In this document: one piece after another, positions 13,142 through 27,081 of the stretch
How the letters are laid out: each line of letters starts with the position of its first letter
Numbering within the stretch: position 1 is the stretch's first letter
DNA from: Solirubrobacteraceae bacterium
GTDB taxonomy: Bacteria > Actinomycetota > Thermoleophilia > Solirubrobacterales > Solirubrobacteraceae
NCBI GenBank assembly: GCA_024711025.1
Contig: JANJTP010000058.1
Coordinates: 1-47,141, forward strand
Reading direction: 5' to 3'
Length of the DNA: 47,141 nt
Translations under genes and position numbers: made by a program
Notes under the pieces: generated by a model
Databases searched by the model: none
What the model was told of the DNA's origin: nothing
The model's input: the letters and a program-made list of their open reading frames with translations, nothing else

Positions 13142-13239
13142 GTCGGGCAGTCTCGCAGCGCGCACGGCGGCCCGCCACGGCATCGCCACACCCGCGCCCG
13201 TCGCCTGCGGCAACGACCTTCCGGTTAGTGTCTCGCGCG

Positions 13240-14103
13240 ATGCCCGTCGCCGTCGTGACCGACTCCACGCACTACATGCCCGCCGACCTGGTCGCGCGCG
13301 AGGGTCTGCACGTGGTCAGCCTCTACGTCGACCAGGGCGGGACTCTCACGAAGGAGTCGGAGCTCGGCGGCTACGACGACTTCTACGACCGTCTGCGCGC
13401 GGGCGCGAAGCTGCCGACGACGTCGCAGCCGTCGATCGGCGACTTTCTCGAGGTCTACGAGCCGCTCACGGCCTCGGGCCACGACATCGTCTCGATCCAC
13501 ATCTCGGGCGGGATCTCCGGCACCGTCGAGTCGGCACGCCAGGCCGCGGCGGAGCTGGCGAGCGGCAACGGCCAGCGGCGGATCGAGGTCGTCGACTCGC
13601 TCAGCGCCTGCGGCGGCCTCGGGATCGCGTGCCTCGCCGCGACCGCGGCCGCCCGCGGCGGCGGCGACGTCCAGCAGACCGCGGTGCGTGCCAGGCAGGC
13701 GATGGACGCATTCGAGATGTGGTTCGCCGTCGACACGCTCGAGTACCTGCAGCGCGGCGGGCGCATAGGCCGCGCGCAGGCCTGGATCGGCACGGCGCTG
13801 CGCGTCAAGCCGATCCTGACGCTCGCCGAGGGGACGCTGATGCCGATCGAGCGCGTGCGGACCGCCCGGCGCGCCTTCGAGCGGCTGCTCGAGTACCTGC
13901 GCGCGCGCCACGACGACGGTGCCGATGCCTGGGTCGTCCAGCACATCCAGTCGCCGGTCGAGGCCGAGCGCCTCACCGACGCGGGCCGTGAGATCATGGG
14001 CTGCGAGCCGCGCTTCGTCTCGCAGATCGGCCCGGTGATCGGCACCCATGCCGGCCCCGGGCTGCTCGGCGTCGGCAGCGTGGCGCCCGAGCTGCTGCGC
14101 TAG
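13240..14103 (+). CDS. DegV family fatty-acid-binding protein
   Basis: DegV/FakB proteins bind a single fatty acid and in firmicutes present it to the FakA kinase. The 287-residue protein starts with the family signature AVVTDSTHYMP. It has the substrate-loop region KLPTTSQPSIGDF, the ISGGISGT strand-turn, and the TLEYLQRGGRIGRAQAWIG block. The C-terminal GPVIGTHAGPGLLGV contains the conserved His. No FakA homologue is in the window. The ATG at 13240 places the TDST motif at residue 8, as usual. Confidence 0.92.
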   Translation: MPVAVVTDSTHYMPADLVAREGLHVVSLYVDQGGTLTKESELGGYDDFYDRLRAGAKLPTTSQPSIGDFLEVYEPLTASGHDIVSIHISGGISGTVESARQAAAELASGNGQRRIEVVDSLSACGGLGIACLAATAAARGGGDVQQTAVRARQAMDAFEMWFAVDTLEYLQRGGRIGRAQAWIGTALRVKPILTLAEGTLMPIERVRTARRAFERLLEYLRARHDDGADAWVVQHIQSPVEAERLTDAGREIMGCEPRFVSQIGPVIGTHAGPGLLGVGSVAPELLR

Positions 14104-23268: not shown

Positions 23269-24321
23269 TCAGCTGCGGGGGCCGTCGGCGCTCACGAGCA
23301 CGGCGCGGGCGTCGCGGCGATCGACCGTCGCCCGCCGGTCGCCGAGCGCGATCGTCAGGGCGCGGTCGTCCTCGTCAAGGACCTCGACGGCGGCGCCCGG
23401 CGCGAGCCCCAGCACGGCGAGTCGTTCGAGCTGCGCGACGTCGTGCTCGGGCAGCGCCACGACCACGCCGGCGACCTTCGGGGGCAGTGCCGAGAGGGCG
23501 ACCGCGCCCTCGAGCATCTCCTGCTCCCGCGCGACGTCGAGCGGCCAGCCGTGCGGGCATCGCGCCGGTGGCGCGAGCGTCGACGCGATCCGCTCGATCA
23601 TCGCGTCGTCGAAGCCGGCACGGATCTGCGATGCGCGCGCATACGACTCCTCGGCGCCGTAGCCGAGGACGTCCACGACGAGCCGCTCGAGCACGCGCTG
23701 GCGCCGCACGACGCTCACCGCGGCGGCGTGGCCGGCCGGCGTGAAGACGATCTCCCTGCTCGGTCCGCGCTGGACCAGGCCGTCGTCCTCGAGCCGCGCG
23801 AGCATCGCGCCGGCCGTCGGGCGCGATATCCCCAGGGCACGGGCGACGTGCGCAGCCCGGGTCGGCAGGTCGCTCGCGAGCGCGCCGCAGGTGACGACGG
23901 CGCAGGTCAGCTCATAGGCGATGAGCAGGTAGTCGTCGGTCGTGTGGCCGCGCTCCCCGGGCTCGAGGATCGTGTCGTGCACGGGTCCGAACGGCTCGCG
24001 GGCCCTGGACCGCGAATTCGGCCTCGCGCCGTGCAGCCGTCCCGCGATCCGCTCCAGCAGCAGCCCACGCGCCACGTCGTCGAGCGGCGCTCCGGGCCCG
24101 GCACCGATCTCGTGCAGGCCGACCGCGACGGCATCGACGCCCCGCGCCTCGAGCCCGCGGCTCGCACAGGCGGTCTCGCATCCGTCGACCGCGACGACGC
24201 GCGCCTCGATCGTGCCCGCCGCCTGCTCCTCGAGCTTCGCGGCGGTCTCCTGCGCAAGCCTCGCGGGCACCGTCGCGCCGGAGCAGGGGACGATCCGCAC
24301 GGGGGGGCGACGCTCGCTCAC
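23269..24321 (-). CDS. Feo-locus regulator: DGC Cys-domain fused to a DtxR-like repressor with FeoA/SH3-like C-terminus
   Basis: 350 residues from the GTG at 24321; an ATG at 24396 would add 25 unconserved residues. The N-terminal part (8-75) matches the DGC 'putative zinc-binding' domain, with Cys13 in VPCSGAT and Cys48/Cys52 in VDGCETACA. Residues 130-200 are a DtxR-type winged helix (ARALGISRPTAGAMLARLED). Residues 200-260 are the DtxR dimerisation helices, and 285-345 an SH3/FeoA-like domain. By eye, the usual metal ligands are changed: DtxR His79, His98, Cys102, Glu105 and His106 align with Gln208, Tyr227, Ser231, Arg234 and Ala235; only Glu83 (Glu212) remains. It is divergent from feoB across two DtxR-box-like palindromes, so it most likely controls iron uptake with an altered signal input. 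Confidence 0.85.
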   Translation of the reverse strand: MSERRPPVRIVPCSGATVPARLAQETAAKLEEQAAGTIEARVVAVDGCETACASRGLEARGVDAVAVGLHEIGAGPGAPLDDVARGLLLERIAGRLHGARPNSRSRAREPFGPVHDTILEPGERGHTTDDYLLIAYELTCAVVTCGALASDLPTRAAHVARALGISRPTAGAMLARLEDDGLVQRGPSREIVFTPAGHAAAVSVVRRQRVLERLVVDVLGYGAEESYARASQIRAGFDDAMIERIASTLAPPARCPHGWPLDVAREQEMLEGAVALSALPPKVAGVVVALPEHDVAQLERLAVLGLAPGAAVEVLDEDDRALTIALGDRRATVDRRDARAVLVSADGPRS

Positions 24322-24399
24322 GAGGGCGCCCCGCCGACTGTCCGCCGAGGGTCGGAGCACTCTCGACGGAGCCTCGAAGCCGGCCGCGCGACCCATCTG

Positions 24400-24413
24400 T
24401 AAGGTGCCCCTAA
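24400..24413. promoter_or_regulatory. DtxR/IdeR-box-like site 1
   Basis: taagg-tgcc-cctaa, an inverted repeat related to the DtxR-family consensus ttaggttag-ctaacctaa. It lies 79 bases upstream of the preferred regulator start (24321) and just outside the alternative ATG at 24396. Confidence 0.6.
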
Positions 24414-24423
24414 CATGGTCGTA

Positions 24424-24437
24424 TTAGGCAACCCTAA
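24424..24437. promoter_or_regulatory. DtxR/IdeR-box-like site 2
   Basis: ttagg-caac-cctaa, a perfect 5-bp inverted repeat matching the outer halves of the DtxR/IdeR box. Its centre is 24 bp from that of site 1, just over two helical turns, which favours side-by-side dimers. It is 166 bases upstream of feoB; the 24438-24602 stretch holds nothing else firm. Confidence 0.65.
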
Positions 24438-24602: not shown

Positions 24603-26576
24603 GTGAGCGGATGCCACGCACCCCCCGGGACCTCGATCCCGGAGCGCGGCGGCGTGGCACTTGTGGGGCATCCCAACGTCGGCAAGTCGGTTCTCTTCAA
24701 GCGTCTCACAGGACACTACGCGAACGTCTCGAACTACCCGGGCACGACCGTTCAGGTGACCCGAGCGAGGGCGCGGTTCGCGCCCGACGTCGCCGTCATC
24801 GACACGCCCGGCGTGGTCGGCTTCCCGCCGCGCAGCGAGGACGAGCGGGTGGCCGCGCAGGTGCTGCTCGAGGAGCCGCTCCGGGCCATCGTCCAGGTCG
24901 GGGATGCGAAGAACCTCGAGCGCACGCTGCTGCTGACGCTTCAGCTCGCCGAGCTGGGCCTGCCGATGGTGCTCGCGCTCAACATGATGGACGAGGCACG
25001 CTCGCGGGGGGTCTCGATCGACCGCTCTCGGCTCAGCAGCCTGCTGGACATGCCGATCGAGGCGACCGTCGCGACGCGCGGGACGGGCGTCGACGAGCTG
25101 GTCCGCTCGATCGGCGAGGCGCGCCCGTCGCTGCTCCACACCGCCTACCCGGAGCCGATCGAGCACGCGCTGCGCCGCGTCGTGCCGTCGCTGCCCGAGG
25201 CTCCGGTCGCGCGCCGCGCGCTCGCGCTGCTGTGGCTCAGCGGCGACGAGACGGCCGGCCGGTGGCTCGCCGAGCGACTCGACGGCGACCGACTCGACGC
25301 GCTGTCCGCCATCCGCGACGATGTGCGCGAGGCGCTCGGCGAGCCCGTTTCGGCGGCGATCCAGCGCGTCAGGCTGGCGCGCGCCGCGGAGCTCGTCGCA
25401 GCCCCCGCGGCCGCTCACGGGGTTGCCCGCCGAGGCGGCGTCACCGAGCGCCTCGGCGCGCTGACGACCCACCCGTTCTGGGCCTGGCCGATCCTCGCGG
25501 GCGTCCTCTACGCGATCTACTGGTTCGTCGGGGTGCTCGGAGCCGGGCATCTGGTCGGGCTCGTCGAGGAGCGCCTGTTCGGCGAGGTCGTCAACCCATG
25601 GGTCGCAGGTCGCGCCGCGGCGCTCCTGCCCGGCATCCTCGCCGAGCTGCTGACCGGCGAGTACGGGCTGTGGACGATGGGGATGACGTACGCCCTCGCG
25701 CTCATCCTGCCGATCGTCTCGACCTTCTTCCTGGCGTTCAGCCTGCTCGAGGACAGCGGCTACCTGGCCCGGCTGACCGTCGTCAGCAACCGGGCGTTCC
25801 GGGTGCTCGGGCTCAACGGCAAGGCCGTGCTGCCGATGGTGCTCGGCCTCGGCTGCGTGACGATGGCCACACTGACGACCCGCATCCTCGAGAGCCGGCG
25901 CGACCGGCTGCTGGCGATCCTGCTGCTCGCGCTCGCCGTGCCCTGCTCGGCGCAGCTCGGCGTCGTGCTCGGGATGCTCGGCGGGATCTCCTTCACGGGG
26001 ACGCTGATCTGGGGCGCGGTCGTGCTGGCCGTGCTGTTCGCCGTCGGGGCGCTGGCCGCACGGCTGATCCCCGGGGAGCGCTCGACCCTCGTCGTGGAGC
26101 TGCCGCCGCTGCGCGTCCCCGTCATCTCCAACGTGCTCGTCAAGACCGTCTCGCGGCTCGAGTGGTACCTGAAGGAGGTAGTGCCGCTGTTCCTGCTCGG
26201 AACGGGGGCGCTGTTCGTCCTCGACAAGGTCAGCGCCCTGCCGGCGCTGATCCGCGCCGGCCAGCCGCTCGTGACCGGCTGGCTGGGGCTGCCGTCCGAG
26301 GCGAGCGCCGCGTTCCTGCTCGGCTTCCTGCGACGCGACTTCGGCGCCACCGGGCTGTTCGTGATGCAGTCGGCCGGGGATCTCACGCCGCGCCAGGTCG
26401 TCGTCGCGATGGTGACGATCACGCTCTTCGTGCCGTGCGTCGCGAGTGTGCTGATGATCGCCCGCGAGAGCGGCGTGCGCGTCGCGGTCGGGCTGAGCGC
26501 CATGATCCTGCCGCTCGCGTTCCTCGTCGGCGGCCTGCTCGAACGACTGCTGACCCTCGTCCAGTGGAACGGCTGA
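24603..26576 (+). CDS. feoB: Ferrous iron transporter FeoB
   Basis: Imports Fe(II) across the cytoplasmic membrane. The 657-residue protein starts with a GTPase domain: G1 loop GHPNVGKS (22-29), switch NYPGTTVQ, G3 DTPG, G4 NMMD. A helical spacer to about 275 and two Gate membrane regions follow. The second carries ALAVPCSAQLGVVLGML with the conserved Cys, and the C-terminal region has VPCVASVLMI. The usual Asn of the G1 motif (GNPN) is His here, and the protein is a little shorter than E. coli FeoB (773). The GTG start overlaps the end of a short upstream frame. The operon continues with a Cys-rich protein and feoA. Confidence 0.96.
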   Translation: MSGCHAPPGTSIPERGGVALVGHPNVGKSVLFKRLTGHYANVSNYPGTTVQVTRARARFAPDVAVIDTPGVVGFPPRSEDERVAAQVLLEEPLRAIVQVGDAKNLERTLLLTLQLAELGLPMVLALNMMDEARSRGVSIDRSRLSSLLDMPIEATVATRGTGVDELVRSIGEARPSLLHTAYPEPIEHALRRVVPSLPEAPVARRALALLWLSGDETAGRWLAERLDGDRLDALSAIRDDVREALGEPVSAAIQRVRLARAAELVAAPAAAHGVARRGGVTERLGALTTHPFWAWPILAGVLYAIYWFVGVLGAGHLVGLVEERLFGEVVNPWVAGRAAALLPGILAELLTGEYGLWTMGMTYALALILPIVSTFFLAFSLLEDSGYLARLTVVSNRAFRVLGLNGKAVLPMVLGLGCVTMATLTTRILESRRDRLLAILLLALAVPCSAQLGVVLGMLGGISFTGTLIWGAVVLAVLFAVGALAARLIPGERSTLVVELPPLRVPVISNVLVKTVSRLEWYLKEVVPLFLLGTGALFVLDKVSALPALIRAGQPLVTGWLGLPSEASAAFLLGFLRRDFGATGLFVMQSAGDLTPRQVVVAMVTITLFVPCVASVLMIARESGVRVAVGLSAMILPLAFLVGGLLERLLTLVQWNG

Positions 26577-26839
26577 TGGCGAGCGCCCCGCAGATCGAGG
26601 CCGCCGGCACCGCGCCCACCGTGCGCTGCGGTCTGTGCGGCTGCGCATACGACCCCGCAGAGAGCGCGTCGTGCGTTTCGTGCCCGCTCCACGGCGGCTG
26701 CGGGCTCGTCTGCTGCCCGGCCTGCGGGCTGAGCACGATCGACCCGTCGAGCTCGAGCCTGGTTTCGCTCGGCACGCGGGCTCGGCGACGGCTCGCGGGC
26801 CGGCGAGGTCGCGCGCTGCGGACGGAGGGGCTCGCATGA
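26576..26839 (+). CDS. Feo-associated cysteine-rich protein
   Basis: 87 residues with Cys in CGLCGC, CVSC, GGCGLVCCPACG: ten cysteines between residues 18 and 50, in a pattern fit for two zinc knuckles or an Fe-S site. The C-terminal third is Arg-rich (RARRRLAGRRGRALR). The ATG shares a base with the feoB stop, and its own stop overlaps the feoA start, so it is locked between the two. It does not resemble FeoC winged-helix proteins. Position suggests a FeoB accessory or iron-handling function. Confidence 0.75.
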   Translation: MASAPQIEAAGTAPTVRCGLCGCAYDPAESASCVSCPLHGGCGLVCCPACGLSTIDPSSSSLVSLGTRARRRLAGRRGRALRTEGLA

Positions 26840-27081
26840 CGGGAGCCGGCGAGGAGCCTCGCATCGTGCTGGCCGACATCGCCCCCGGCGCCGACGCCCG
26901 CGTGCGGGCGCTCGACGGGCTCGACGCCGGCCTGCGCGAGCACCTGCAGGCGTACGGCGTGGCCCCCGGCCGCCTCGTGCGGGTCATCCAGCACTCGCCG
27001 GTCACGGTCGTCCAGGTGGAGCACACCGACCTGGCGTTCGAGTCCCACGTCGCGCGCGGCATCGACGTCGAGCTGGCCTAG
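26836..27081 (+). CDS. feoA: FeoA-type SH3-like protein
   Basis: 81 residues forming one FeoA domain: LADIAPGADARVRAL, the loop YGVAPGRLVRVIQHSP, and the terminal strand LAFESHVARGIDVEL, which aligns with the 'aLrr..a..I.v' end of FeoA proteins. FeoA binds FeoB and is needed for Fe(II) uptake. It normally precedes feoB; here it is third, coupled to the Cys-rich gene by ATGA. Confidence 0.88.
   Translation: MTGAGEEPRIVLADIAPGADARVRALDGLDAGLREHLQAYGVAPGRLVRVIQHSPVTVVQVEHTDLAFESHVARGIDVELA

Follow-up and report, generated by a model that had tools for sequence, protein, structure and literature searches.

In Actinobacteria, the textbook sensors of Fe(II) are DtxR and IdeR. What, then, does such a regulator sense when it stands beside feoB, carries an additional N-terminal DGC domain and appears to have lost the residues that bind iron? 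The question is raised by a gene in a 47,141-nucleotide stretch of DNA from a Solirubrobacteraceae bacterium (the whole stretch is referred to here as the window), for which an earlier note, made by reading the sequence, had proposed that Fe(II) is no longer sensed in the normal site and that sensing may have moved to the cysteines of the DGC domain. The gene and its domains are the following:

23269 to 24321, minus strand: gene for the DGC-DtxR-FeoA regulator, 350 aa, GTG start (ORF analysis, orthologues)
24028 to 24321, minus strand: DGC domain, residues 1-98, predicted alpha/beta fold (Pfam and AlphaFold2)
23524 to 23958, minus strand: DtxR winged helix and dimerisation domain, residues 122-266 (fold comparison, alignment)
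23284 to 23508, minus strand: SH3-like/FeoA domain, residues 272-346 (Pfam; FeoA 3e19, Z 14.3 for the predicted structure)

The reading frame of the regulator contains no internal stop. An alternative in-frame ATG at 24396 would give a protein of 375 aa, but the GTG start agrees with the orthologues. The order DGC, DtxR, SH3/FeoA, as first read from the sequence, is borne out by Pfam, with scores of 29.6 bits for DGC (PF08859; cut-off 27, and 38-48 bits in relatives), 51 bits for Fe_dep_repr_C (PF02742; cut-off 27) and 38.2 bits for FeoA (PF04023; cut-off 23), while the N-terminal DtxR HTH model falls just under its cut-off (24.2 against 26 bits). A frame shift or an assembly error that joined two genes could in principle produce such an order, but eight other genomes encode the same succession of domains within one frame, and we found nothing at this ORF in support of an artefact. 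Because of these eight genomes, we rule that explanation out, its probability being negligible. The regulator is real and conserved, and it belongs to the DtxR/IdeR/MntR fold family.

The predicted structure agrees with this assignment. In the AlphaFold2 model (mean pLDDT 83.5) the core is a DtxR-type fold, with residues 122-346 matching this fold family at Z 20-24. The closest solved fold is an MntR-type protein with a FeoA-like domain (5zr6; Z 23.9, rmsd 1.7 over 206 residues, for residues 127-346), followed by IdeR at a Z of about 20; with IdeR/DtxR (1fx7, 7b20) the regulator shares the winged helix, the dimerisation domain and the SH3-like/FeoA domain. Modelled alone, the DGC part gives an alpha/beta fold (pLDDT 82.5), for which the PDB holds no significant solved relative (best Foldseek E 1.1, best VIA-align Z 5.3) and no sequence match to a solved structure. 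We likewise found no structure or biochemistry of any DGC protein, and Pfam describes the domain only as putatively zinc-binding.

Nine fusions of this kind were found in all. Besides the one in the window, there is one in the same family, two belong to a different family within the order and five to a third family of the class (f7). The fusion is rare, with 4 cases in 232 genomes of the order and 5 in 103 of f7; two of the fusions come from groundwater Actinomycetota MAGs. No further fusion was found among 396 genomes sampled across the phylum, and the contig pattern scan, which found two loci, has weak coverage outside the class, where absence is only weakly tested because the patterns came from three sequences. 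A core-domain tree was built with eight of the nine fusions, the ninth having been found later. In this tree, the eight form one clade (support 97/95), which lies beside a group of DGC-less sisters (joint support 100/99) and apart from canonical IdeR-like proteins. One member (L061, 521-1516) has a gap of roughly 20 residues in its dimerisation domain, in the region of the CPHGW motif, which may be genuine or due to the assembly. In the open-access papers searched, which provide limited evidence, there was no description of a DGC-DtxR protein or of a relevant atypical DtxR.

Has the metal site really been lost? Aligned to solved IdeR, the regulator has Gln208 for His79, Tyr227 for His98, Ser231 for Cys102, Arg234 for Glu105 and Ala235 for His106, exactly the substitutions first read by eye, and no intact DtxR core site is present. 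The regulator therefore lacks the primary-site ligand set of metal-activated DtxR/IdeR sensors (Met10, Cys102, Glu105, His106, with Asp/Glu variants in MntR), of which it keeps only an Asp at the Met10 position. This Asp is also used by MntR proteins (PMC10317159) and is shared with 5zr6, but the regulator differs from the latter in having none of the remaining metal ligands and in its DGC fusion. The ancillary set (His79, Glu83, His98 and two residues of the SH3 domain) is lacking too: Glu83 is retained as Glu212 next to Gln208 and Tyr227, and the two SH3-domain ligands cannot be reliably aligned.

These losses run through the clade. His98, the ligand at position 102, Glu105 and His106 are gone from all nine fusions and His79 from seven of them, while Glu83 is kept throughout. 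Eight fusions entered the ligand table, all with Asp at position 10; the ninth was read separately against the alignment and has His79, Glu83 and Tyr at 98, while positions 102, 105 and 106 all lack Cys, Glu and His. The DGC-less sisters (for example L038 and L048), which are about 36-41% identical to the regulator, differ from it in keeping most ancillary ligands (His79 in 15 of 18, Glu83 and His98 in 18 of 18), and 15 of the 18 have Asp or Glu at position 102; canonical IdeR-like proteins keep the ligand set, with Glu or Asp replacing Met10 and Cys102. The earlier note was thus right about the ligands; moreover, the loss is a property of the fused clade and coincides with the DGC fusion. As an aside, six of the sisters (L038, L040, L046, L048, L050, L065) combine His79, Glu83 and His98 with Gly at 105, which amounts to another atypical metal site.

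One might argue that a divalent metal is still sensed in a rebuilt site made of Glu212, the Asp that stands in for Met10, and the FeoA-like domain. The constancy of the Glu83 equivalent and of the tabulated Asp, together with the intact FeoA-like domain, fits such a site, but seven of the nine fusions have no acidic, His or Cys residue at 98, 102, 105 or 106, and L060 and the ninth fusion keep only His79 and one Asp, so that we consider this reading improbable.

What the clade gained can be seen in its cysteines:

24283 to 24285, minus strand: codon of Cys13, at the end of the first strand in the model of the DGC part, invariant in all DGC domains aligned
24178 to 24180, minus strand: codon of Cys48 in the DGC motif, at the end of the second strand in that model (alignment)
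24166 to 24168, minus strand: codon of Cys52 (alignment)
23887 to 23889, minus strand: codon of Cys145 in the winged-helix domain; 9 of 9 fusions have Cys here, 18 of 18 sisters Tyr

The first three had been noticed at the outset and are indeed present, but the set is one of four, Cys145 having been overlooked. Across the eight aligned fusions there are exactly four invariant cysteine columns, these four, and the ninth fusion, found after the alignments were built, has all of them. Stand-alone DGC proteins (PF08859) resemble the fusions in that the equivalents of Cys13, Gly15, Gly47, Cys48 and Cys52 are invariant; they differ in having no DNA-binding domain and in holding their fourth cysteine inside the domain, between Cys13 and Cys48, in all nine aligned. 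This middle cysteine is absent from all nine fusions, and the regulator keeps three of the four DGC cysteines within the domain. It looks, then, as if the DNA-binding domain had supplied a substitute for one cysteine of the DGC domain. Because the number of cysteines is conserved while one of them is exchanged between domains, the pattern suggests that the four form one shared centre. The exchange is the strongest sign of such a centre, though an indirect one, and residues 146-150, beside Cys145, are of low confidence in the AlphaFold2 model. A second winged-helix change tracks the fusion at position 158 (codon region 23846-23850), which is His in seven of eight fusions and Arg in 18 of 18 sisters.

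Compared with IdeR and DtxR, then, the regulator has lost the primary-site ligands, has an ancillary site reduced to Glu83, and has added an N-terminal DGC domain and Cys145. As its iron-binding residues are lost and four apparently linked cysteines are gained, the signal it answers is probably not plain Fe(II). The proposal that normal Fe(II) sensing was lost is strengthened in so far as the canonical sites are dismantled across the clade, alongside the DGC fusion and the extra invariant cysteine; a move of sensing to the cysteines would leave such a pattern, which lends partial support to the idea that the sensor was relocated. The cysteines could also form a structural zinc site, in which case the DGC domain would stabilise or oligomerise the protein, and metal-free DNA binding would act as a constitutive brake or in competition with IdeR. 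This would explain the ligand loss without any new sensor and is compatible with the retained recognition residues described below, but an interdomain swap that preserves four cysteines is needless for a structural site, even if it is compatible with one. On present evidence we think a structural role of this kind unlikely.

Which genes might be controlled? Next to the regulator, the window contains the following:

24603 to 26576, plus strand: feoB, the only FeoB_N match in the window genome (Pfam)
26576 to 26839, plus strand: small Cys-rich ORF of 87 aa that overlaps the feoB stop, no Pfam match
26836 to 27081, plus strand: feoA-like gene that overlaps the Cys-rich ORF (Pfam)

The feoB gene is divergent from the regulator across a gap of 281 bp. 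It is single and adjoins the fusion in the window genome, in G066 and in G075, whereas no feoB was detected in the five f7 fusion genomes, and the ninth fusion adjoins an Nramp transporter, with siroheme-decarboxylase and NirJ/AhbC-like genes near. In three f7 genomes, an IlvD/Edd-type dehydratase adjoins the fusion (one confirmed by Pfam, two judged by eye). The domain order thus occurs in eight more genomes, but feoB is the neighbour in only three of the nine, and the description of the protein as a feo-locus repressor suits those three members and not the family; feoB as a general target of the fusions was rejected. Two observations concern the feo genes themselves. The Cys-rich ORF carries the motifs CGLCGC..CVSC..CCPACG and overlaps both feoB and feoA, and L024 has this same Cys-rich part joined to FeoA within a single ORF (13166-13684). 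Furthermore, the FeoB N-termini (L024 11168, L061 1622, window 24603) have a Cys-His motif (CHSAGG, CHAPPG) before the GTPase domain.

The gap between the regulator and feoB contains two IdeR-type boxes:

24400 to 24413, no strand assigned: IdeR-type 14-bp box TAAGGTGCCCCTAA (pattern scan)
24424 to 24437, no strand assigned: IdeR-type 14-bp box TTAGGCAACCCTAA (pattern scan)

These are the only two TWAGGNNNNCCTWA boxes in the window, they lie 24 bp apart, and the chance expectation for the window is 0.11 at up to one mismatch. The pattern is that of the 14-bp TTAGGNNNNCCTAA IdeR half-site, proposed as the single-dimer IdeR consensus (PMC8464063). The 3.1-Mb window genome has six boxes in all and none in a reversed-pattern control. 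The other four (L128-L131) precede an AMP-binding enzyme (C37:11090), a cupin (C41:104748), an FTR1 iron permease (C52:3872) and an iron-type-looking ABC solute-binding protein (C63:41975) and look like a compact putative iron regulon; the AMP-binding enzyme with a box recurs in G075 (L144). A sigma-70 promoter scan of the regulator-feoB intergenic region, uninformative for this group, returned nothing. In the ninth fusion, two boxes 23 bp apart separate the fusion gene from the divergent Nramp gene; L024 and L061 have one box each between regulator and feoB, L060 has one upstream of itself, and the three closely related genomes with an IlvD/Edd neighbour have none near the fusion. The sisters have similar TAAGGNNNNCCTTA boxes upstream, and in the six named above such boxes lie between the sister gene and a ZIP-type transporter.

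The regulator also retains residues with which such boxes could be read. The base-contact residues of IdeR, Ser37, Pro39 and Thr40 (PMC8464063), are kept as Ser166, Pro168 and Thr169. The equivalent of Gln43 is Ala, and the Q43A variant of IdeR still binds.

The same boxes mark iron ABC, ZIP and feoB genes where the fusion is absent, and iron genes of genomes that have neither fusion nor sister. They are thus not specific to the fusion and do not tell which paralogue binds, and we rejected them as proof of DGC-DtxR binding. Two DtxR paralogues whose sites are intact, one of them next to an Nramp gene, occur in the window genome and may use these boxes, and other DtxR-family proteins are present in 8 of 8 fusion genomes tested. 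The spread of the boxes and the company of these proteins also fit the metal-free brake or competitor considered above. Alternatively, the canonical IdeR-like paralogue L001, whose ligands are complete and whose Ser-Pro-Thr contacts are the same, could be the protein that reads the regulator-feoB boxes, with DGC-DtxR acting elsewhere or as its partner. The boxes at iron genes of fusion-free genomes speak for this, but in two different genera the promoter that the fusion gene shares with its neighbour contains paired boxes, 23-24 bp apart, and the sisters too have boxes upstream of their own genes. We therefore judge it somewhat unlikely that L001 is the reader; it is possible that both proteins occupy the boxes.

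The reading that we favour, to which we would give a little less than an even chance, is that the Fe(II) sites were dismantled and replaced by a four-cysteine centre that sets DNA binding at the IdeR-type boxes. Cys13, Cys48 and Cys52 of the DGC domain and Cys145 of the winged helix would meet in space and form one centre tying both domains, whose likeliest content would be an Fe-S cluster or a metal bound through thiolates. Its assembly or loss would follow iron or Fe-S status, NO or an oxidant, and its state would shift the placing of the recognition helices at the 14-bp boxes, whose putative occupancy by the regulator would adjust, through activation or repression, the neighbouring divalent-metal transporter and probably the transcription of the regulator itself. 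The more explicit version, which is possible though on balance doubtful, is that a DtxR-type Fe(II) sensor evolved into a cysteine-cluster sensor, one DGC ligand having moved to the DNA-binding domain, and that the state of the cluster (iron, NO, redox) directly sets DNA binding. Rrf2-family regulators such as IscR, NsrR and RirA use a cysteine-held cluster to switch winged-helix control of iron genes; the likeness is in the proposed logic only, as they are a different protein family. A clade that dropped its metal sites, kept the scaffold together with the IdeR-type contacts and boxes, and gained four cysteines across two domains would show the rewiring of a metalloregulator to a new signal. 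If this is true, a DGC domain would for the first time have a signal-responsive function, and a DtxR scaffold would carry an Fe-S or NO/redox switch. The regulator also offers a first testable handle on a domain for which we found no solved structure.

The neighbours of stand-alone DGC genes also bear on the chemistry of the domain. In two genomes (L115, L116) these genes adjoin nitrate reductase genes, and narHI are among the neighbours; at L115, narK and the RIC Fe-S repair gene also adjoin. Others lie by an arsenic-type cluster, as partly judged by eye, and one lies by feoB in G071, the only adjacent case seen among genomes with both feoB and a stand-alone DGC gene, so that DGC next to feoB was rejected as a general rule. 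We infer from these contexts that iron, Fe-S or NO/redox chemistry is favoured over a purely structural role, and the proximity to Fe-S repair, nitrate and arsenic-type genes, as a hint of chemistry, counts against a structural zinc site in the regulator. The neighbours at L115 and L116 also point to a possible role of stand-alone DGC proteins in nitrate/NO metabolism. Tandem arrays of two or three DGC genes occur at three further loci (L094, L095, L118), some of them near methyltransferase or URO-D-type genes.
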